Assembly: GCF_017356245.1 (NCBI RefSeq)
Contig: NZ_JAFMZZ010000001.1
Location: 3,317,294 to 3,381,293 of the forward strand
DNA from: Bordetella petrii
GTDB taxonomy: Bacteria > Pseudomonadota > Gammaproteobacteria > Burkholderiales > Burkholderiaceae_B
Direction of reading: 5' to 3'
Length of the DNA stretch: 64,000 nt
The position numbers and the translations under genes are program-made. Below are positions 5,103-16,508 of the stretch, in pieces. Under the pieces are notes generated by a model, which saw only the letters and a program-made list of their open reading frames with translations, was not told the origin of the DNA and searched no databases. Within the stretch, counting starts at the first letter, position 1; the number at the start of each line of letters is the position of its first letter.

Positions 5103-6308
5103 CTATCTAACCAGCTGGTTCATCTCCAGAATCGGCATCATCACCGCCAGCACGATCAGCAGCACGAAGCCGCCCATCAGCAGGATGAGCAGCGGCTCCA
5201 GCAGCGCGGTCATGGCCATGGCGCGCCGTTCGAGATCGCGCGACAGGTTCTGCGCGCCGCGCTCCAGCAGTTCGGGCAGTCGGCCGGTCTTCTCGCCGCT
5301 GGCGATCAGGTGAATCAATAACGACGGGAACACCTTCTGCGCCGCCAGCGCCGAAGCCAGCGGCGCGCCTTCGCGCACGCGTTCGGCGGCCTCGTCCACC
5401 GCGCGGCGCAGCCGGTCGTTGCCCAGCGTGCGGCGCGCCGCGTTCAAGGCGCCCAGCAGGCTGACGCCGCTGCCGCTCAGGATCGCCAGGGTAGAGGCAA
5501 AGCGCGCGGCGTCCACGCCCAGAACGAAACGCCCGATCAGCGGCAGGCGCAGCAGGCGGGCATGCCAGGCCTCGCGCCGCGCCGGCGCGCGCAGCGCGGC
5601 GCGCCACAGCGCGAACGCCGCCGCGGCGCCGAAGGCCGTGGCCCAGCCCCATTGGCGCACGAAGTCGCTCAGCGCCAGCATGACGCGAGTCAGCAGCGGC
5701 AGCTGTTGATGCGCGTGGTCGAACGCGGTGATGACCTGCGGCACCACATAGCCCAGCAGGAACGCCACGATCACCACCGATACGCACGCCACCACCGCGG
5801 GATAGATGAATGCCGTCATGACCTTGCTGCGCAGCGCATTGCGTTCTTCGATGTAGCCCGCCAGTTTTTCCATGACTTGCGCCAGGTCGCCCGATTCTTC
5901 GCCGGCCGCGACCAGCGCGCGGTAGATCTCGGGAAAATCGCGCGGCCGCGTGGCCAGCGCGTCGGCCAGGCGATAGCCGGCCCGCACCTCGTCGCGCACG
6001 CCAGCCAGCGCGCCGGCCACGTGGCGGCTTTCGGCCTGCTCCAGCGTGGCGTTCAACGCGGCGTCCAGCGGCAGGCGCGCGGCCAGCAGGCTGGCCAGCT
6101 GGCGCGTCAGCCATGCCAGCTCGGTGTCCGACAGGCGGCGCTGCGGCAGCCCCGAGCCCCCCTGGCGCGATGCCGCCGGCATGGTCGACAGCGGCAGCAG
6201 CCCGCGCGCGCGCAGCTGGTTGCGCGCGCTGCGCTCGGTCTCGGCATCGAGCGTGCCATGGACGATTTTTCCCACCAGGTCGGTGGCTTCATAGCGGAAC
6301 GACGGCAT
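5103..6308 (-). CDS. gspF: Type II secretion system inner-membrane platform protein GspF
   Basis: Polytopic platform protein that links the GspE ATPase to the pseudopilus. The 401 residues contain two T2SSF domains (about residues 65-195 and 268-390), each with the family pattern of a helical cytoplasmic bundle. Membrane helices lie near 172-195, 215-240 and 372-396. The N-terminus MPSFRYEATD is typical of GspF. The gene is divergent from gspD and separated from it by 124 bp, so this system is split into three transcription units. The ATG at 6308 is the first in frame. Confidence 0.96.
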   Translation of the reverse strand: MPSFRYEATDLVGKIVHGTLDAETERSARNQLRARGLLPLSTMPAASRQGGSGLPQRRLSDTELAWLTRQLASLLAARLPLDAALNATLEQAESRHVAGALAGVRDEVRAGYRLADALATRPRDFPEIYRALVAAGEESGDLAQVMEKLAGYIEERNALRSKVMTAFIYPAVVACVSVVIVAFLLGYVVPQVITAFDHAHQQLPLLTRVMLALSDFVRQWGWATAFGAAAAFALWRAALRAPARREAWHARLLRLPLIGRFVLGVDAARFASTLAILSGSGVSLLGALNAARRTLGNDRLRRAVDEAAERVREGAPLASALAAQKVFPSLLIHLIASGEKTGRLPELLERGAQNLSRDLERRAMAMTALLEPLLILLMGGFVLLIVLAVMMPILEMNQLVR

Positions 6309-6432: not shown

Positions 6433-9042
6433 ATGCGCCGCCTTAGAAAAAACACCCTGGCCGTCCTGCTTGCCGCCGCGTGCGCGGCAGTGTCGCCGTT
6501 GCCCGTGCTGGCGCAGGCACAGCCTTCCGAGCAGCGCGTCAGCCTGAACTTCGTCGACACCGATATCCCGGCCGTGCTGCGCGCGCTGTCGCTGTTCACG
6601 CAGCGCAACTACCTGGTGGATCCGCGCGTCAAGGGCAAGCTGACGCTGGTGTCGGAACGACCGGTCGACCGCGACACGGCCTTGACGATGCTGGCCGGCG
6701 CGCTGCGCATGCAGGGCTTTGCCATTGTCGAAGTCGACGGCGTGACGCGCGTGGTGCCCGAAGCGGATGCCAAGCTGCAGGGCAGCGCGGTGGTGGCCGA
6801 CACGCCGCGCCGCACCGGCGCGCCGGCCCCGGTGCCGATGGCGGATTTCGCGCGCGATGCGCGCGGCAGCGAAGTGGTGACGCGGGTGTTTTCGCTGAAG
6901 TACGAGAACGCCGCCAACCTGCTGCCGGTGCTGCGGCCGCTGGTGCCCCCAAATAATCCCATCAATGCCTATCCCGGCAACAACACGCTGGTGGTCACCG
7001 ACTATGCCGACAACCTGGAACGCATCGCCCGCGTGATCGCCAAGGTGGATGTGCCCACCGCCATCGATACCGACGTCGTGCCCGTGAAATACGGCGTGGC
7101 CAGTGACCTGGCCTCGCTGGCCACGCAGCTGCTCGACGCACAGAACGGCGACGCCAGCCAGCGCATTGCCATGGTGGCCGACCCGCGCACCAACAGCGTG
7201 CTGGTGCGCGCCGGCAGCCCGGCCCGCACCCGCCTGGCGCGCGACCTGATCCAGAAGCTGGATTCCGAGCAGGCGCGGCCCGGCAACCTGCACGTGGTGT
7301 ACTTGCGCAACGCACAGGCATCGCGCATGGCCGAGGTGCTGGGCGGCCTGCTGGCCAGCCAGGCCCTGAACGGCGCGGGCCGCGATGCCGGCGGCGCGGC
7401 CGGCGGCGGCGCCGGCACGGGCGCGGCAGGCACGGGCCGGGCCGGCGGCCGCACGTCGGCTTCGCGTGCGTCGAGCACTCAGGTGGGCATGTCCAGCGGC
7501 AGTTCGGGCGGGCTGGGCGGCAGCGGCTCGTTCAACCAGCAGCCTATCGAGCGCGACGACGGCGGCGCGGGCGAGGCGGTGTCGTATTCGGGCGGCGGCG
7601 CCACCGTGCAGGCCGACCCGTCCACCAACACGCTGATCATCTCGGCGCCCGAGCCGCTGTACCGCAGCCTGCGCGAGGTGATCGACCAGCTCGACCAGCG
7701 CCGCGCGCAAGTTCTGGTGGAAAGCCTGATCGTCGAGGTCAGCCAGGAAAAGGCGGCCGAGTTCGGCATCCAGTGGATGACGGGCGCCGGCAGCCTGGAC
7801 GGCAGCGGCTTTGTCGGCGGCACCAACCTGGGCGGCAGCGGCATCGGCAGCGCCGGCACGGGGGCCACTACGCTGGACGCGCTGGGGCGCGGCCTGACGC
7901 TGGGGCTGGTCAAGGGCACGGTCGACGTGCTGGGCAACCAGGTGCTCAATTTGAATGTGCTGGCGCGGGCCCTGCAGAACAGCGGCGAAGCCAACATCCT
8001 GTCCACGCCCAACCTGCTGACGCTCGACAACGAGCCCGCCAGCATCCTGGTGGGCAAGACCGTGCCCTTCGTCACTGGCCAGTATGTCACGTCCGGCAGC
8101 GCCGGCAGCACCAACCCGTTCCAGACGATCGAGCGCGAAGATATCGGCCTGAAGCTGAATATCCGCCCGCAGATTTCGGAAGGCGGCGCGGTCAAGCTGG
8201 ACATCTACCAGGAAGTCAGCAGCATCGACGAAGCCAGCTCCAGCGAGACCACCGGCCTGGTGACCAACAAGCGCGCCATCGACACCAGCGTGCTGGTCGA
8301 CGACGGCCAGATCATCGTGCTGGGCGGCTTGCTGGAAGACCGGGTGACGTCCACCACCAACGCCGTGCCCGGCCTGAGTTCGATTCCGCTGCTGGGCGCC
8401 TTGTTCCGCTACGACACGCGCCAGCGCACCAAGAGCAACCTGATGGTGTTCCTGCGGCCGTTCGTGGTGCGCGACGCGCGCGACAGCGCCAATGTGACCC
8501 TGAACCGCTACGACTACATGCGCCGCGCGCAAAGCCAGGCGCAGCCGGGCAAGCACTGGCTGCTGCCGGACGTGCAGGCGCCGCTGCTGCCGCCGGCGCG
8601 CGTGCAGGCCGTGGGCAGCGCCGACTATGACATGCGTCCCGGGGCGGCGGCCGCCACGATGCGGCGCAAGCCGCCGACCACGACACAGACTTTCCAGGTG
8701 CGCCAGCTGCCGGCGCCGCCGGGCGGGTCGGACCCGGGCAGCCCGATACGCGCCAACCTGCCGCTGGGCGTCAGCATCGCCACCGATCCGTCGGCCCTGT
8801 ATGCCGAGACGCGCCAGGACACCACCATTCTGCAGGTGGCCATGGTGGCCGACCAGGCCGAGGCCGACCGCATCGCGAAGCGGGTCCGCATCAGCGGCCT
8901 GAGCGCCTATGTGCAGGTCGGCCCGGGCGGGCAGGGCTATGTGGTGCGCTCGGACGTGGCGCGCGACGCCACCACCGTTGACACGGCGGTGGCCCTGCTC
9001 AAAGAGCTGGGCTATCGCGCCGAGCTGGTGACGCACCTGTGA
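6433..9042 (+). CDS. gspD: Type II secretion system secretin GspD with C-terminal SPOR-like extension
   Basis: Forms the outer-membrane secretin channel. A signal peptide (residues 1-27, ending VLAQA) is followed by N0 (about 35-105), N1 and N2 (148-280), and an N3 interrupted by a Gly/Ser-rich linker (about 313-390). The secretin domain (about 495-690) has VPGLSSIPLLGALFR. After the secretin come about 90 Pro-rich residues and a final block (about 797-869) whose predicted order beta-alpha-beta-beta-alpha-beta and motifs ILQVAMV and YVQVGPGGQGYVV resemble a SPOR peptidoglycan-binding domain. This makes it long for the family at 869 residues. The stop overlaps the gspE start by 4 bases. Confidence 0.95.
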   Translation: MRRLRKNTLAVLLAAACAAVSPLPVLAQAQPSEQRVSLNFVDTDIPAVLRALSLFTQRNYLVDPRVKGKLTLVSERPVDRDTALTMLAGALRMQGFAIVEVDGVTRVVPEADAKLQGSAVVADTPRRTGAPAPVPMADFARDARGSEVVTRVFSLKYENAANLLPVLRPLVPPNNPINAYPGNNTLVVTDYADNLERIARVIAKVDVPTAIDTDVVPVKYGVASDLASLATQLLDAQNGDASQRIAMVADPRTNSVLVRAGSPARTRLARDLIQKLDSEQARPGNLHVVYLRNAQASRMAEVLGGLLASQALNGAGRDAGGAAGGGAGTGAAGTGRAGGRTSASRASSTQVGMSSGSSGGLGGSGSFNQQPIERDDGGAGEAVSYSGGGATVQADPSTNTLIISAPEPLYRSLREVIDQLDQRRAQVLVESLIVEVSQEKAAEFGIQWMTGAGSLDGSGFVGGTNLGGSGIGSAGTGATTLDALGRGLTLGLVKGTVDVLGNQVLNLNVLARALQNSGEANILSTPNLLTLDNEPASILVGKTVPFVTGQYVTSGSAGSTNPFQTIEREDIGLKLNIRPQISEGGAVKLDIYQEVSSIDEASSSETTGLVTNKRAIDTSVLVDDGQIIVLGGLLEDRVTSTTNAVPGLSSIPLLGALFRYDTRQRTKSNLMVFLRPFVVRDARDSANVTLNRYDYMRRAQSQAQPGKHWLLPDVQAPLLPPARVQAVGSADYDMRPGAAAATMRRKPPTTTQTFQVRQLPAPPGGSDPGSPIRANLPLGVSIATDPSALYAETRQDTTILQVAMVADQAEADRIAKRVRISGLSAYVQVGPGGQGYVVRSDVARDATTVDTAVALLKELGYRAELVTHL

Positions 9043-10469
9043 ACGCCTACCCCTTGCCCTACAGCTGGGCGCGCGCGCAGCGCGCGGTGCTGCTGCTGCG
9101 GCCGGGCGCGTCGCAGCTGACCACCAGCGCGCGCACGCCGGCCTGGGCGGTGCGGGAGATCCTGCGCTGCCACGGCGACGTGCCGGTGGCCGAGGTGTCG
9201 GACGATGCGCTGGAGACCCTGCTCAACGCCGCCTATAGCGACACGGCCGATGCGGCCTCGGTGATGGGCGTGGCCGAAAACGAAATCGACCTGGACCGGC
9301 TGCTGCAGGATATTCCCGAAGTGGCCGACCTGCTCGAAACGCAGGACGACGCGCCGGTGATCCGCATGATCAACGCGCTGTTCACGCAGGCGGCGCGCGA
9401 CGGCGCCAGCGACATGCACATCGAGCCCTACGAAAGCCATTCGGTGGTGCGCTATCGCGTCGACGGCGTGCTGCGCGACGTGGTCAGCCCGCGCAAGGCG
9501 CTGCATTCGGCGCTGATATCGCGCATCAAGATCATGGCCAACCTCGACATTGCCGAGAAGCGCCTGCCGCAGGACGGCCGCATCGCGCTGCGGGTGGGCG
9601 GGCGGCCCATCGACGTGCGGGTGTCCACGCTGCCCACAGGCCATGGCGAGCGCGCGGTCCTGCGCCTGCTCGACAAGGAAGCCGGGCGGCTGCAGCTCGA
9701 GAAGCTGGGTATGAGCCCGCAGGTGCTGGCGCAGCTGGACGGGCTGATCCGCCAGCCGCACGGCATCGTGCTGGTCACCGGCCCGACCGGCAGCGGCAAG
9801 ACCACTACCCTGTATGCGGCGCTGGCGCGGCTGGATGCGTCCACCACCAATATCCTGACGGTGGAAGACCCCATCGAATACGACTTGCCGGGCATCAGCC
9901 AGACCCAGGTCAACGCCAAGATCGACATGACCTTCGCGCTGGCGCTGCGGGCCATTCTGCGGCAAGACCCGGATGTGATCATGATCGGCGAGATCCGCGA
10001 CCTGGAAACCGCGCAGATCGCCGTGCAGGCCTCACTGACCGGCCACCTGGTGCTGGCCACGCTGCACACCAACGACGCCACCTCGGCGGTGACGCGTCTG
10101 GTCGACATGGGGGTCGAACCTTTCCTGCTGGCTTCGTCGCTGCTGGGGGTGCTGGCGCAGCGGCTGGTGCGCCGCCTGTGCCAGCAGTGCCGCCGGCCGG
10201 ATACCCTGCCCGACGGGCGGCTGGTATATCGGCCGGTGGGGTGCGAAGCGTGCAACCACACGGGCTACAGCGGACGCTCGGGGATCCACGAGCTGTTCGC
10301 GGTGGACGACGACGTGCGCCACCTGATCCATGAAGGACGCGACGAACAGGCGCTGCGGGCCCAGGCGCTGCGGGGCGGCATGCGTACCCTGCGCGACGAC
10401 GGCCAGCGCTGGGTCGAAGCCGGCGTGACCGCGCCGGAAGAAATCCTGCGCGTGACCCGCGAAGCGTGA
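9039..10469 (+). CDS. gspE: Type II secretion ATPase GspE
   Basis: Cytoplasmic hexameric ATPase that drives pseudopilus assembly. The 476 residues carry the Walker A motif GPTGSGKT at 248-255, an Asp box (TVEDPIEYDL), Walker B with IMIGEIRD and a His box (LVLATLHTND). The zinc-binding CxxC pairs (Cys381/384 and Cys402/405) typical of GspE are present. The N-terminal part is somewhat short, consistent with a single N1E-like domain. It starts at GTG inside the gspD stop (GTGA overlap), which implies translational coupling. It ends at a convergent junction with gspN. Confidence 0.97.
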   Translation: MNAYPLPYSWARAQRAVLLLRPGASQLTTSARTPAWAVREILRCHGDVPVAEVSDDALETLLNAAYSDTADAASVMGVAENEIDLDRLLQDIPEVADLLETQDDAPVIRMINALFTQAARDGASDMHIEPYESHSVVRYRVDGVLRDVVSPRKALHSALISRIKIMANLDIAEKRLPQDGRIALRVGGRPIDVRVSTLPTGHGERAVLRLLDKEAGRLQLEKLGMSPQVLAQLDGLIRQPHGIVLVTGPTGSGKTTTLYAALARLDASTTNILTVEDPIEYDLPGISQTQVNAKIDMTFALALRAILRQDPDVIMIGEIRDLETAQIAVQASLTGHLVLATLHTNDATSAVTRLVDMGVEPFLLASSLLGVLAQRLVRRLCQQCRRPDTLPDGRLVYRPVGCEACNHTGYSGRSGIHELFAVDDDVRHLIHEGRDEQALRAQALRGGMRTLRDDGQRWVEAGVTAPEEILRVTREA

Positions 10470-10601: not shown

Positions 10602-11351
10602 TCACTGCGGCGTGCCGAAATGGCTTTTGCCGTTCGACACCGGGCCCAGCGCGCTCAACAGGCCGGTCAGGGCGGCACGTTGGGCGGGGGTGGCATTGTC
10701 GGCGGGGGCGGCTTCGCCGCGGAAATGCAGGCGGCCGCGCTGCAGGCGGCCCTGCCCGGTGACTGACAGCACGCCGGAGTCGGTGCTCAGCGCCAGGCGC
10801 AGCGCGCCATTGTCGGCGGTGACGCGCAGGGTGTAGTCGCCCAGGGGGCGCACATGCGACAGGGCCGAACCGGCATTGGTCCAGTGGCCGGTGGCCAGGG
10901 TGCCGCTGGCGGGCAGGCGGCTCGGCGAGAAAGATCGCCATTCGATCTCGACCTGTCCGGCGGGGGCCACGGTGTTCAGCGGCGCCCCGAAGGCGGCCAG
11001 CGCCGCGGCGGGCAGGCGCAGGTTCTGGCCGGACACCGTGATGCCGGACCAACCTGGCTGTACGCGCACGGGGCCGCGCAGCCAGGCATGCGAGATTTCC
11101 ACCGCGCCGTCGCGCCACTGCCAGCGCAGCGGTTCGGACAGCAGGTGGCGGCCGCCCGGCGGGCCCAGCGCCAGCCGGGCGCTGCCGTGCCAGATCGTAC
11201 CGTCGGCATCGGCCAGCGTGGCCATGGCGTCGTCGGGCAGGGCCAGCAGCAGCCAGCGCGCCGGCAAGACCGGCAGCGCGGCCAGCAGGGCGCAGCACAG
11301 CGCCAGGGCCGCCAGCGGCGGCGAGAAGCTTGCGGGCAGGGGTAAACGCAT
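10602..11351 (-). CDS. gspN: Type II secretion system protein GspN
   Basis: Accessory T2SS protein of the PulN/GspN family, 249 residues. It has one N-terminal membrane anchor (about residues 10-32) and a beta-rich periplasmic part with the segment ADADGTIWHGSARL, which is typical of the family. It is the last gene of the gspC-to-gspN run, and its ATG shares one base with the gspM stop (TGATG). Not every T2SS has this gene, and its exact role is not established. Confidence 0.88.
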   Translation of the reverse strand: MRLPLPASFSPPLAALALCCALLAALPVLPARWLLLALPDDAMATLADADGTIWHGSARLALGPPGGRHLLSEPLRWQWRDGAVEISHAWLRGPVRVQPGWSGITVSGQNLRLPAAALAAFGAPLNTVAPAGQVEIEWRSFSPSRLPASGTLATGHWTNAGSALSHVRPLGDYTLRVTADNGALRLALSTDSGVLSVTGQGRLQRGRLHFRGEAAPADNATPAQRAALTGLLSALGPVSNGKSHFGTPQ

Positions 11352-11962
11352 CAGGGCAGGGCGGGAAGCAGGGTCAGGGTGCCGCTCAGGCGGCCAGGCA
11401 GGCGCCGGCCGGCGGGATTCGTCGCGCGGACGAGTTCGGCATCCGCCACCGACAGGCGCCAGTCGCGCGCCGTGGTGTCCAGCCAGCGGAACAAGGCCGC
11501 TGCGGGCGCGTCGCGCAGGGTCAGCGCGATGGCGGGCGAGGGCGCCGGCGTTTTCGAATCCGCCGGCGCCGGCCTGGCCGCCGCCTCGGCCAGCGACCAG
11601 CTGGCTTGCGGCAGGCCTTCGCGGCGCAGGCTGGCGGCCAGTTCGGCGATGGCGGGCGCCGCGCTTGCCGCGCCGGCGTCCTGGCGCCGCAGGGCGCGCA
11701 CCTGGGCGGTCAGTTCGGCCACCGTGGCGGCCTGGGCGCGCAGGCCGGGCAGTTCCCGCCTGGCCTGTTTCACGGTCGACCAGGCCGGTTCGATCAAGAC
11801 CAGGAACACGAATGCGGCGGCCATCAACGCGCCGGCCCCGGCCAGCAGCTGCTGCTCGCGGCGCGCCCGCTGCGCATACCAGGACACGGCGCGCCGGCGC
11901 CAGGCTGCGGCGCGCGCGGTCCAGGGGGCGAGGCGGTCGCGCAAGGAAGCGATAAGGGTCAT
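11351..11962 (-). CDS. gspM: Type II secretion system protein GspM
   Basis: Bitopic inner-membrane protein of the assembly platform that partners GspL. The 203 residues have a short basic cytoplasmic tail, one membrane helix (about 40-58), a coiled-coil-like Ala/Glu/Arg stretch and a C-terminal ferredoxin-like domain. Identification rests on size, topology and position between gspL and gspN, because GspM sequences diverge strongly. The start overlaps the gspL stop by 4 bases (ATGA). Confidence 0.9.
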   Translation of the reverse strand: MTLIASLRDRLAPWTARAAAWRRRAVSWYAQRARREQQLLAGAGALMAAAFVFLVLIEPAWSTVKQARRELPGLRAQAATVAELTAQVRALRRQDAGAASAAPAIAELAASLRREGLPQASWSLAEAAARPAPADSKTPAPSPAIALTLRDAPAAALFRWLDTTARDWRLSVADAELVRATNPAGRRLPGRLSGTLTLLPALP

Positions 11963-13041
11963 GGCTGGGCTCGCAGGATGCGCCAGGCGCCGCTGTCGTC
12001 GCGTTCCACGCGCGCGCCCAGCGCCGCGGCGCGTTGCAGAATGGCGGCCGTGTCGGCCAGGCGGTCGGCGGCCGCGCCGGCGGCAGCCGATGGCGTGGCC
12101 GCCCCGGCGGCGGGCGCACTGCCCGGCGCCGCATCGGCATGCCCGTCATGCAGGCGCAGCGTCAGCACCTCGTCGCGATAGGCCAGCCGGTCGACGGCGT
12201 CGGCCGCGAACGGCAGCACCTGCGCGGCCACGCGGGCCAGCGACAGGAAATCGTTGCCCGCGGCCTTGCCCTGGCCGGCCCGCAGCGCATCGCGGGCCTG
12301 CTGCGCCTGGCGCAAGGGGTCCAGCACGACCGGGATATCCGGAAACGCGTCGCGCACGTCCTGCTCCATGCGCTGGCGCAGCCGCCCGGCTTCGTCGCCA
12401 AGCTGCACGGCATACAGGTTCAGGCCCAGGATCCACACCGCCGCGGCGGCCGCCAGCCAGGCCCACGCGCCGCGCCAGCGCGAAGGCTGCCTGGGCGCCA
12501 ATTGCGGCAGCGCCAGCGACCAGCCCGGCCCGGGCGCCTGCCAGCGCGCATCGTGAATACCATCCAGCGCCGCGGGCCGCGCCTGTTCGGGCGCATCGGA
12601 CCAGACCTGCAGGGGATAAAACGCCTGCACGGCCAGCCCCGCGGCCGACAGCCGCTGCCAGGCCGCGCGCAGGGCGTCGCGCGCCATCCAGGCGGCCAGC
12701 ACCGTGCCATCGGCGGCGCGGCCGCCGTGCCCCACGGCCAGCGCCTCGAGATCGCCGAGCACCAGGCCTTCCAGCGTGCCGCGCACGGCGGCCGCGTGGC
12801 GGCTGGCCGGCACGGCCGGCACGCTGACGGCGGCGACGATCACGTCGTCGGGATGCAGAATGGCCTGCACGCGCGCCTGGGGAAAGGCGGCGGCCAGCGC
12901 GGCGGCCGCCAATCTGCCGCCGCGTGCGGCGCGGCCCTGGCGGTCCAGCCAGGCGTAGGCCAGCGGGGTCGTGTCCGACCAGGCCGCCAGCGGCGGCAGG
13001 GCCACGCGCAGGATGTTCTTTACGGTGTTTCTCTTATCCAT
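11959..13041 (-). CDS. gspL: Type II secretion system protein GspL
   Basis: Inner-membrane platform protein whose cytoplasmic actin-like domain recruits GspE. The 360-residue product has a cytoplasmic domain (1-185), one membrane helix near 192-213 (AWLAAAAAVWILGLNLYAV), then a periplasmic segment with a Pro/Ala-rich linker near 305-325. The ATG at 13041 lies 22 bp inside the end of gspK, an unusually long overlap for this operon that implies coupled translation. Confidence 0.93.
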   Translation of the reverse strand: MDKRNTVKNILRVALPPLAAWSDTTPLAYAWLDRQGRAARGGRLAAAALAAAFPQARVQAILHPDDVIVAAVSVPAVPASRHAAAVRGTLEGLVLGDLEALAVGHGGRAADGTVLAAWMARDALRAAWQRLSAAGLAVQAFYPLQVWSDAPEQARPAALDGIHDARWQAPGPGWSLALPQLAPRQPSRWRGAWAWLAAAAAVWILGLNLYAVQLGDEAGRLRQRMEQDVRDAFPDIPVVLDPLRQAQQARDALRAGQGKAAGNDFLSLARVAAQVLPFAADAVDRLAYRDEVLTLRLHDGHADAAPGSAPAAGAATPSAAAGAAADRLADTAAILQRAAALGARVERDDSGAWRILRAQP

Positions 13042-13958
13042 ACGGTTTCAGGAGCGCGCTGCCCGGAAATCGCCAGCAGGGCCTGCATGCTGACGCGGGC
13101 GCGTTGATAGGCCACGGTGCCGTCGGCCAGGAACCATTCGCTGGTCGTGGCCACCGCCGGTACTTGCAGGGGTTTTCCGCCCGCGGCCAGGCGGTTGGCA
13201 AAGTCGCCGCTGTCGTTGAACCAGCGGCCCCGGTCGCGCTCGCCCATCACCGAGCGGGCCTGCGCCAGGCTCAGGTCAGGCACCAGCGCGGCGATCACTT
13301 CCGGCTCGGCGGTGTTGACATTGACCAGGGTGGCGGCCGGCAGCAGCGTCATGGTGCGGCGCATGGCCCGCCGGCCCGCGTCGTCCACGCCCAGCTGCGC
13401 GGCCAGGTCGTCGATGCCGCGCGGCTGCGGCGCCTGGGCGCCGGCCTGCGTGCCGGCCGACGAGGCCGGCGCGGTGTCGGGCACACGGCTCTGCGTCAGG
13501 GCGACCTGCGCGGCCAGTTGCGGCGCCAGTGTGGCGGGCAGGCCCACCAGGTCCAGCAGGCGCGCCAGCACATCGACCTGGGACGGGTCCACCACGCCGC
13601 GCCTGGCCAGGTTGTACAAGTTGTATTTGCCCTGTTCGTCCTGGATGCCGCCGGAAAACACCGCGGCGCGCCCGCTGTCGTCGCCTTCGATGCGGGTGTC
13701 GAGCACCGGCGTCGACCATAGCTGGTCACGCCTGACGGTGGCCTCCTGGCGGGCATTGTCGCGCAGCAGCAGGCGCGCCCAGTCGATGCCGCCCAGCAGC
13801 AGCCAGCGCGCCTGCACGCGCGCCTGTTCGTTCTCGATCTGCCGGATGGCCGAAGTCTGGCGCAGGAACAGGCCGCTGGTCAGGGCCGCGACGATGGCGA
13901 CCACGATCAGCGCGCTGACCACCGCCATGCCCTGCTGCCTTGGCGCGCGCGGGGTCAT
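13020..13958 (-). CDS. gspK: Type II secretion minor pseudopilin GspK
   Basis: Large minor pseudopilin that caps the pseudopilus tip together with GspI and GspJ. It has 312 residues with a prepilin-type start (RQQG|MAVVSALIVV), and as in other GspK proteins the Glu at position 5 of the mature protein is absent. The body contains a helix-hairpin-helix-like region with NVNTAEPEVIAAL. The start was placed at the ATG at 13958 because the longer frame is antisense read-through, and this ATG overlaps the gspJ stop by 4 bases. Confidence 0.94.
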   Translation of the reverse strand: MTPRAPRQQGMAVVSALIVVAIVAALTSGLFLRQTSAIRQIENEQARVQARWLLLGGIDWARLLLRDNARQEATVRRDQLWSTPVLDTRIEGDDSGRAAVFSGGIQDEQGKYNLYNLARRGVVDPSQVDVLARLLDLVGLPATLAPQLAAQVALTQSRVPDTAPASSAGTQAGAQAPQPRGIDDLAAQLGVDDAGRRAMRRTMTLLPAATLVNVNTAEPEVIAALVPDLSLAQARSVMGERDRGRWFNDSGDFANRLAAGGKPLQVPAVATTSEWFLADGTVAYQRARVSMQALLAISGQRAPETVWIRETP

Positions 13959-14554
13959 GGCAGCACCACGATGCGGGTATAGCGTTCGGGCTGGCCGCGG
14001 CCGCGGCGTTCGATGGCCACTTCCAGCCCGGTGGCGCGCTCGGTCTCGGGCTGAAGCGGATCGCGCCAGCCGCGGCCGGGCACCCAGGCGCGCACGCCCA
14101 GCCCGCTGGCGCCGGGCATCACCAGCACGCCCTCGGCCGGCTCGGGCAGCGGATAGCGCGCCGCGGGCACGCCGCTGTAGCGCCACAGGCCGTCGGGCCG
14201 CAGGCGCCACGTGATGCGCTGCCACAAGCCGCCGTCCGGCGTAGCGCGCACGATGTTCAGCAGCGCCGCGCCGGCCGACTGCGCCACCTGTATGCCGGGC
14301 GGCAGCAGGGTGGCGGCGCCGGCCTGGGCCGGCGTGCCTGCATAGGCGCGGTTCAGGTCGCGTTCGACCTGCCCCAGCGTGCGCAACACCACGGCCTGGT
14401 CCTGCGCCTGTTCACCCAGCCAGTCGCGCGCCGCCGACACGTGTTCCAGGCCCTGCCACGACAGCAGGCTCACGACCGCCATCAGCGCAATGGCGATCAG
14501 CACTTCGATCAGCGTGAAGCCTTGCTGGCGGGCGGGGCGGCGGCGCGGGCGCAT
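13955..14554 (-). CDS. gspJ: Type II secretion minor pseudopilin GspJ
   Basis: Minor pseudopilin of 199 residues. It has the prepilin peptidase site RQQG|FTLIEVLIAIAL, with Glu5 present, followed by one hydrophobic helix and a globular domain. The ATG at 14554 shares a base with the gspI stop (TGATG). A TTG three bases earlier is possible but less likely. The prepilin peptidase that would process it is not encoded in this window. Confidence 0.95.
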   Translation of the reverse strand: MRPRRRPARQQGFTLIEVLIAIALMAVVSLLSWQGLEHVSAARDWLGEQAQDQAVVLRTLGQVERDLNRAYAGTPAQAGAATLLPPGIQVAQSAGAALLNIVRATPDGGLWQRITWRLRPDGLWRYSGVPAARYPLPEPAEGVLVMPGASGLGVRAWVPGRGWRDPLQPETERATGLEVAIERRGRGQPERYTRIVVLP

Positions 14555-14949
14555 CAACGGATCTGCGACAGCAGGCCGGTCAGTTCGGCCAGCGTGGCGT
14601 CGTTGCGCTCGGGGTCGTGCACGCGCACGGTGACCTGGCGGAAATTGCGGTTCAGCGAATTGCGTATTTCCAGTTCGCAGCGCAAGGCCCGCGTGCCCTG
14701 AGGGCAGGGCGCGGTCTGCGTGCCGGCGCGCGGAAAGGCCTGTTCCAGCCGCAATTGGGCCAGGGCATTGTCGGCCGCCAGCAGCGCCAGCGTCTTGTCG
14801 CGAATGGCGCGGCTGTTGTCCAGCATGACCTGGGTCGCGCGCATCGCGGCGCCCATGGCTACCGCGATGATGGCCAGCGCCACCAGCACTTCGATCAGCG
14901 TGAAGCCGCGCTGCGCGGCGCCGCCGCGGCGCTGCCTACCGGATGGCAT
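14554..14949 (-). CDS. gspI: Type II secretion minor pseudopilin GspI
   Basis: Minor pseudopilin of 131 residues with the processing site RG|FTLIEVLVALAI and a hydrophobic first helix. It forms the tip complex with GspJ and GspK. The ATG at 14949 overlaps the end of gspH by 14 bases, and the upstream part of the open frame is out-of-phase gspH sequence. Confidence 0.95.
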   Translation of the reverse strand: MPSGRQRRGGAAQRGFTLIEVLVALAIIAVAMGAAMRATQVMLDNSRAIRDKTLALLAADNALAQLRLEQAFPRAGTQTAPCPQGTRALRCELEIRNSLNRNFRQVTVRVHDPERNDATLAELTGLLSQIR

Positions 14950-15427
14950 AGCCGCCTGCCGCGTCGCGTTCGATGCGCACGCTGTCGCCCCGCGAGGCCA
15001 GTTCCAGCACCAGCGGGTCGGCGATCCATTCGGTGCCGAACACGACCGGGCGGTCCGGCGCGCGCCGCAGGCTGACGGGCGGCGCGCTCCAGGCCTGCGC
15101 GTGCAGAACCTGGTCGTTGGTGAAGCGGTCGGGGGTCTGCGGGCCGTCGTCCTGCGCCGACAGGCGCGCCGGCCTGCCGCGCCGCTCGAACGACCAGCCG
15201 CGCTCGTCGGCGCGCCACTGGATGGCCCGCCCGTCGCTGCGCGCCTCGCTCTGCGCCACCGCAAAAGCATCGACCAGGCGTTCGGCGTCGGCGCGCAGCG
15301 AGCGCTCTGAAGAAGATGCCACCGACAGGCTCACCATCGACGCGGCGATGGCGATGATCGCCACCACCACCAGCATTTCAATCAGCGTGAAGCCGCGCTC
15401 AGAGATCCCACGAGCCGATGTCCGCAT
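14936..15427 (-). CDS. gspH: Type II secretion minor pseudopilin GspH
   Basis: Minor pseudopilin of 163 residues with the site ERG|FTLIEMLVVVAI, one membrane helix and a beta-rich C-terminal domain of the GspH type (RFTNDQVLHAQ region). It probably joins the shaft GspG to the tip proteins. Its 5-prime end overlaps gspG by 29 bp, the longest overlap of the run. Confidence 0.94.
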   Translation of the reverse strand: MRTSARGISERGFTLIEMLVVVAIIAIAASMVSLSVASSSERSLRADAERLVDAFAVAQSEARSDGRAIQWRADERGWSFERRGRPARLSAQDDGPQTPDRFTNDQVLHAQAWSAPPVSLRRAPDRPVVFGTEWIADPLVLELASRGDSVRIERDAAGGYAIR

Positions 15428-15848
15428 CGTCCTGCTCTCCGCCCGCTTTGCTGTCGGGCCCGAACGTGAATACGTCGATCTCGCCTTTGACGCCGGGGTT
15501 CAGGTACTGATAGGGGTGGCCCCAGGGGTCGTTGGGCAGGCGGTCCAGGTAGGGCCGCCAGTTGCGCGCGCCGTCGGGGCGCTGCACCAGCGCCTGCAGC
15601 CCCTGGGCGGCGGACGGATAGCGGCCGTTGTCCAGGCGGTACAGCTTCAAGGCCTGCATCAGGCCGCTGATGTCCTGGCGCGCGGCCACGCGCCGCGCCT
15701 GGTCGGGGCGGTCCAGCACGCGGGGAACGACCAGCGCGGCCAGGATCCCCATGATCACGATCACCACCATGATCTCGATCAGTGTGAAGCCCTGCTGCCG
15801 GGCTCGCGGGCGCTGGAATTGACGCACGAAGACTCTCCGCTCATTCAT
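15399..15848 (-). CDS. gspG: Type II secretion major pseudopilin GspG
   Basis: Main subunit of the pseudopilus. The 149 residues have the site RQQG|FTLIEIMVVIVIMG and the strongly conserved C-terminal part with LPNDPWGHPYQYLNPG, DVFTFGPDSKAGGEQDDADIG and the calcium-binding end. The ATG at 15848 gives a 20-residue leader. An in-frame GTG at 15827, seven bases after a GGAGAG box, would give a more typical 13-residue leader and may be the true start. Confidence 0.97.
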   Translation of the reverse strand: MNERRVFVRQFQRPRARQQGFTLIEIMVVIVIMGILAALVVPRVLDRPDQARRVAARQDISGLMQALKLYRLDNGRYPSAAQGLQALVQRPDGARNWRPYLDRLPNDPWGHPYQYLNPGVKGEIDVFTFGPDSKAGGEQDDADIGSWDL

Positions 15849-15900
15849 GGAAAGCGGGCATGATGCGTCAAAAATATGACAGTAATACTGTTGCCGCGCT

Positions 15901-16344
15901 TCAGGGCGCGGGCACGATCCCGGCCGGCGCGGCGGCGCGCGCGGGGGCCGCCGCGCGCACCAGCGCGCCGTTGCGGTCCAGCTCGACGCCGGTCGGCGAT
16001 ACGGCGGCCAGCGCCAGGCCCGGCGCGATCTCCGCGCCCACACGATAGGCGCGGGCCGGGCCGCCGTCCACGCTCAGCACGGCCGAGCCCTGCGCGCCGG
16101 CCGCGATCAGTCCCAGCACCGTGATTTGCGTATCGATGGCGCCATCCGCGCCGAACAGCATGGCCACGGCCTGCGTATCGGATGCCGGCGCCGACGCGGC
16201 GGCCAGCGCCGGCGGCAGCTCGGCCGGCCCGGGCGCCAGCAGGATGGCGCACCACAGGCCGACGCCGGCGGCCGTGGCCGCGATGGCCAGCACGCGCAGC
16301 GCGCGCGGGGCGGGGGGCAGGGCGAATGGCGGGCGCAGGCGCAT
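15901..16344 (-). CDS. gspC: Type II secretion protein GspC, short form without PDZ domain
   Basis: Connects the inner-membrane platform to the secretin. The 147 residues show a short cytoplasmic tail, one membrane helix (about 17-36) and an HR domain (about 55-125, with VAMLFGADGAIDTQITVLG and AYRVGAEIAPGLALAAVSPTG). They then end in an Ala/Pro-rich tail, so the C-terminal PDZ or coiled-coil part of longer GspC proteins is absent. It is the first gene of the minus-strand run, and 52 bp separate it from gspG. A PHO-box-like site lies 50 bp upstream of its ATG. Confidence 0.85.
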   Translation of the reverse strand: MRLRPPFALPPAPRALRVLAIAATAAGVGLWCAILLAPGPAELPPALAAASAPASDTQAVAMLFGADGAIDTQITVLGLIAAGAQGSAVLSVDGGPARAYRVGAEIAPGLALAAVSPTGVELDRNGALVRAAAPARAAAPAGIVPAP

Positions 16345-16394
16345 GCGGGCAGGGCGGTAGTGGGTGAACAAGGCCCCGACGCTAACCGATCGAC

Positions 16395-16412
16395 ATGACA
16401 GCCATATGAGCG
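16395..16412 (-). promoter_or_regulatory. Candidate PHO box upstream of the gspC operon
   Basis: Read on the minus strand, CGCTCATATGGCTGTCAT has two 7-base repeats in the arrangement of the PhoB consensus CTGTCAT-N4-CTGTCAT. The second repeat is perfect, the first matches 5 of 7, and the spacing is exact. It lies 50 bp before the gspC ATG and within the divergent region shared with the lipoprotein/phospholipase operon. No good -10 box was found 10-11 bases further on. Confidence 0.4.
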
Positions 16413-16508
16413 GCCGGCGCCGCCGTGCCGGCCGGCGCGCCCGCCGCGGTCGGGCAATTGTCATTGTTGATCCCTAGCATCGTCGTGCGGCCCGTGCGCC
16501 GCGCAAGT

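Follow-up and report, generated by a model that had tools for sequence, protein, structure and literature searches.

A type II secretion secretin of Bordetella petrii with a C-terminal SPOR domain, a probable tether to peptidoglycan

The gene gspD, encoding the secretin of a type II secretion system (T2SS), was analyzed in a 64,000-nucleotide stretch of Bordetella petrii DNA (assembly GCF_017356245.1, contig NZ_JAFMZZ010000001.1, positions 3,317,294 to 3,381,293 of the forward strand), referred to here as the window. Its product scored above the curated cut-off of the GspD model TIGR02517, contains N0–N3 and secretin domains, with Secretin_N matched by Pfam at three stretches, and ends in a domain identified as SPOR by profile and predicted fold. 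A search against PHROGs returned one family: the secretin part matched filamentous-phage protein IV. The following features were assigned:

6433..9042, + strand: gspD, type II secretion secretin, 869 aa (TIGR02517, 627.5 bits vs a cut-off of 351)
6433..6516, + strand: signal peptide spanning about residues 1-28, taken to be of the signal peptidase I type (class inferred from sequence)
6544..6753, + strand: N0 domain, residues 38-107 (PF21305, 78.8 bits)
7969..8472, + strand: secretin pore domain, residues 513-680 (PF00263, 168 bits)
8503..8667, + strand: S-like region, about residues 691-745, common to GspDs without SPOR (by eye on sequences; dN/dS 0.083)
8668..8817, + strand: Pro/Gly-rich linker, about residues 746-795, probably disordered (pLDDT < 50)
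8827..9030, + strand: SPOR domain, residues 799-866, with Gln801 (RlpA Gln270 position) and Arg839 (RlpA Arg311 position)

From the sequence, an initial annotation had described a complete secretin followed by a Pro/Gly-rich linker and a SPOR-like terminal block at about residues 797-869 with beta-alpha-beta-beta-alpha-beta topology. This layout was borne out; absent from that account was the S-like region, which is retained after the secretin domain and ahead of the linker. At the other end of the protein, N0 directly follows the signal peptide, leaving no long N-terminal tether. A loose lipobox pattern flags Cys17, but this residue is kept in only three of seven Bordetella sequences (window included), and with no tether present the protein was rejected as a lipoprotein or liposecretin.

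Searched with the whole GspD, the Pfam model PF05036 (SPOR) matched with 21.8 bits (E 2.5e-4; gathering score 21), and with the last 121 residues alone it reached 24.8 bits (E 2.7e-5). Matches at E<=0.1 were found in 17 of 18 tails including that of the window, while a lipidated SPOR-tailed copy (L018) gave 14.6 bits alone, under the Pfam cut-off, in a piece that ended five residues early. The AlphaFold model of residues 744-869 predicts the order of elements E-H-E-E-H-E, an RNP-like fold which agrees with the topology read by the initial annotation, with ten-residue pLDDT means of 79-94 across the SPOR domain and a value of 65 for the final six residues. About 50 residues before the domain have pLDDT < 50 and are therefore probably a disordered linker. 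The second-best fold match of the modelled tail was 6i09, a complex of the RlpA SPOR domain with glycan. When the tails were aligned, profile to profile, with three SPOR segments from the same genome, the result was not significant (probability 4%). A chance match was rejected because homologous tails, fold and constraint agree, and the terminal domain is confirmed as SPOR as far as profile and predicted fold can tell.

Judged from seven Bordetella sequences (21 pairs), the SPOR tail is maintained by constraint: mean dN/dS was 0.138 for SPOR and 0.125 for the N0-secretin core, while the S-like region stood at 0.083, the linker at 0.114 (17 of 21 pairs usable) and the Gly/Ser loop at 0.426. Five gspD orthologs lie in genomes of the same genus, and their secretin cores are identical to those of the five named Bordetella loci listed next. 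A scan of named genomes yielded 17 loci, in all of which SPOR is fused to GspD; they belong to Bordetella (five: two strains of Bordetella petrii, Bordetella sp. BOR01, Bordetella genomosp. 2 and 4), Schauerella, Achromobacter aestuarii, Xylophilus, Mitsuaria, Variovorax (six), Pseudogulbenkiania and Pseudothauera.

In a sample of 268 genomes of the family, 152 of which hold a GspD at E<=1e-50, a profile of the tail gave 76 matches at E<=0.001 in 66 genomes. The 59 strong ones (E<=1.1e-11, frames of at least 495 aa) are spread over 50 genomes and 11 of 43 genera; a secretin was read in the same frame for 46, and for the other 13 TIGR02517 matched a frame of equal length at an adjoining place. 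One further match is a fragment at a contig edge in genome G019. Among the 16 weak matches, four cover only the linker of GspDs ending before SPOR, one lies in a 330-aa frame of G019, and 11 lie in short frames (248-294 aa) and were taken, from frame length, for other SPOR proteins. SPOR-tailed GspD is rare in the samples of the order and the class, where the tail was found on GspD-length frames in at least 2 of 300 genomes (at least 8 with any match) and at least 2 of 369 genomes, respectively, one of the latter outside the order (G829, secretin part read); these counts are lower bounds, no more than 11-16 first-look candidates having been scored per genome.

The window gspD belongs to a T2SS gene cluster, in which C, E, F, G, H, I, K, L, M and N exceeded model cut-offs and J was weak:

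5103..6308, - strand: gspF, upstream of and divergent from gspD (TIGR02120, 518 bits)
9039..10469, + strand: gspE, its start codon overlapping the gspD stop (TIGR02533, 712 bits)
10602..15857, - strand: gspN, M, L, K, J, I, H and G (N and M matched by Pfam models alone; GspJ under its cut-offs in both NCBIfam and Pfam)
15901..16464, - strand: gspC (PF11356, 32.1 bits vs a cut-off of 27; 15901-16380 tested)

A tree of 93 GspD cores was computed with the tail left out, 19 SPOR-less rows having been added to an earlier tree of 74 rows. It comes from a quick search, contains some long branches and has an outgroup that is not confined to one side of any branch; the presence of SPOR was part of the basis on which rows were picked. 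On both trees the fewest changes for SPOR were three, and on the 93-row tree they amount to one gain at the base of a clade of 83 rows (support 99) and two losses: one in a clade made up of 20 liposecretins, a second GspD of the B. petrii genome (contig C4) among them, and one in eight rows of one genus. The rows of Variovorax, Mitsuaria, Xylophilus, Pseudogulbenkiania and Pseudothauera nest within the SPOR clade, the pattern that transfer would give. Lipidation, scored by eye from lipobox and tether, needs three changes on the 93-row tree. The rows fall into four classes: 38 with SPOR but no lipobox, 17 with both, 20 with a lipobox only and 18 with neither. Several GspDs (L109, L110, L111, L137, L016, L159-L161) carry the pre-SPOR linker motif and end just before SPOR. 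At two of these loci (L109, L016), whose ends were examined, no SPOR remnant was present and gspE directly follows, which looks like a clean deletion.

The initial annotation had seen neither a pilotin nor GspAB genes near gspD. For the pilotins PulS/OutS and AspS this holds genome-wide, with no match in profile searches of the whole genome; in the control runs E. coli was detected, and one of 14 control genomes exceeded the cut-off with each. A GspA of the known kind was not found in the genome either, as neither of two PG_binding_1 matches lies on a frame with a P-loop. GspB likewise gave no match, a weak negative because all 14 control genomes also stayed below the cut-off of its model. In published work, cited here from excerpts of the papers, an Ala-Phe motif in helix alpha-12 of the S-domain is described for pilotin-dependent secretins, while ExeD is pilotin-independent and relies on ExeAB (PMC6532946).

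For the SPOR domain of RlpA, glycan contacts are described for Gln270, Phe274, Arg302, Arg309 and Arg311, of which only the glutamine is highly conserved, and the basic patch of SPOR domains can be built by other residues (PMC6895207). In an alignment of the tails with RlpA, whose residues were numbered along the structure chain from Gln270, Gln801 takes the Gln270 position and Arg839 that of Arg311; the former is Gln in 52 and the latter kept in 54 of 55 distinct tails. By this alignment, Arg311 marks the only position of the RlpA patch (R302, R309, R311) that is kept. Outside the classical site, Arg817, Arg819, Arg844 and Arg862 are invariant in an 18-row alignment. Glycan binding by the GspD SPOR domain is thus plausible, not assured. 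The SPOR-tailed GspD of another order of the class (L141, genome G829) has an RVR motif in its tail, like classical SPOR domains.

In solved secretins the S-domain lies on the periplasmic side. The flexible linker that follows the pore and the S-like region, about 50 residues long, would hold the SPOR domain in the periplasm, and with about 15 subunits per channel, the stoichiometry of other secretins, each pore would bear a ring of SPOR domains. By binding glycan strands this ring could hold the channel in the wall, and it may also concentrate GspD subunits there during assembly, doing in cis what scaffolds of the GspA/GspB type do in trans elsewhere. From the domain, its predicted fold, its fusion to GspD, and its conservation, constraint and phylogeny, we infer, as the simplest reading, that GspD probably carries its own peptidoglycan tether, a C-terminal SPOR domain on a flexible linker.

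Several points weigh against a wall-binding tail. The Pfam score of the single sequence is marginal, barely above the gathering cut-off; Foldseek puts the RlpA SPOR domain 14th (E 0.022), with similarly folded but unrelated proteins ahead of it; and of the 44 PDB sequence entries that a profile of the tails matched at E<=1, none is a SPOR protein. The Gln801 position holds Glu in two and Leu in one of the 55 distinct tails, and the G019 fragment also lacks the glutamine. The Arg309 position is hydrophobic, that of Arg302 lacks a basic residue and another residue stands in for Phe274; with two of three RlpA arginines and Phe274 not kept, glycan affinity may be weak or lost. In addition, the two losses on the tree mean that SPOR is dispensable in those lineages. 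It is nevertheless very improbable that the tail is a SPOR-derived fold which has lost glycan binding and makes contact with a different T2SS component or with a neighboring secretin subunit: the unconserved Arg302, Arg309 and Phe274 positions would suit such a role, and the four invariant arginines off the classical site suggest another conserved surface, but Gln270, the most conserved SPOR side chain according to the same source (PMC6895207), is kept in nearly all tails.

The initial annotation had proposed that peptidoglycan binding places or anchors this secretin instead of a pilotin. The missing PulS and AspS matches, and a window GspD without conserved lipobox or long N-terminal tether, speak for such a replacement. 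As a general rule, substitution lacks support: the S-like region is retained, 17 of the 55 SPOR-tailed rows are also predicted lipoproteins, and in eight rows of one clade that have neither SPOR nor lipobox the GspD frame is still open; pilotins of other families may also exist. Since SPOR co-occurs with lipid anchors and is lost without gene loss, it is unlikely to be a targeting device, and targeting and anchoring by SPOR in place of a pilotin appears improbable. SPOR as a replacement of the S-domain was rejected by eye, as SPOR-less GspDs have the same S-like region. Wall anchoring, with glycan binding predicted, is the more likely reading of the domain; SPOR would not take over pilotin function, and in some SPOR-tailed relatives a lipid anchor may provide outer-membrane targeting. 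SPOR domains target glycan without stem peptides, which is enriched at septa through amidases (PMC6895207), and the 6i09 glycan complex ranks high among the fold matches. SPOR might thus send channels to denuded glycan from division, so that the division machinery places the T2SS at septum or pole; with the basic patch kept in part only, we regard this as rather doubtful. Also rather doubtful is a wider proposal for a betaproteobacterial T2SS lineage, present also in other orders, in which a ring of about 15 tethered SPOR domains would bind denuded glycan and place or assemble channels where amidases have just acted. If true, such placement would link the secretion of proteins with either cell division or turnover of the wall.

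According to the excerpts, only Legionella LspD is known among T2SS secretins to carry SPOR, at its N terminus (PMC9239104). LspD of Legionella pneumophila resembles the window GspD in having its own predicted SPOR and no known pilotin, GspA or GspB (PMC6617341, PMC9239104). However, its SPOR precedes N0, whereas in the window GspD it follows the S-like region on a long linker. The SPOR domain of Pseudomonas aeruginosa RlpA (6i05, 6i09) shares 15% identity with the tail and has a lytic transglycosylase rather than a secretin as its partner in the same protein. PilQ, the type IV pilus secretin, also bears wall-binding domains that may anchor it (PMC5285504), but these are N-terminal AMIN domains in a pilus system. 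GspA and GspB (ExeAB, OutB) tie T2SS secretins to peptidoglycan (PMC9239104, PMC6532946) as separate proteins acting on N-terminal secretin domains. The liposecretins HxcQ and XpsD are targeted without a separate pilotin (PMC6617341), in their case by an N-terminal lipid anchor. No description of a C-terminal SPOR on GspD was found in the excerpts of the open-access literature searched. Within that literature the arrangement of domains is new for GspD, but LspD sets a precedent for a T2SS secretin with SPOR. In solved secretins only a small part lies in the outer membrane and the remainder is periplasmic (PMC6532946), the main periplasmic part of the channels being 18-20 nm long (PMC9239104). 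The tail bears on how secretin channels pass and stay in the wall, and on how secretins without known pilotin assemble. Within a single gene family, a domain that probably binds the wall and a lipid anchor have each been gained and lost in nature, and as these occur in all four combinations the two roles are separable by experiment.

Two genomes of one genus (G393, G392; loci L117-L122) each hold three GspDs with a SPOR tail, of which two have a lipobox and one does not. The second T2SS-type GspD of the B. petrii genome (L039, G000:C4:323983-326157) has a LALAGCAAP lipobox, a long Pro/Ala tether and no SPOR; it looks like a liposecretin, so that one genome would hold both wall-tail and lipid-anchor types. 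Near it, a 732-aa frame (L039, 8832-11027, - strand) with a lipoprotein-like start and, by eye, a sulfatase/phosphatase-like motif is a possible substrate of that second system.
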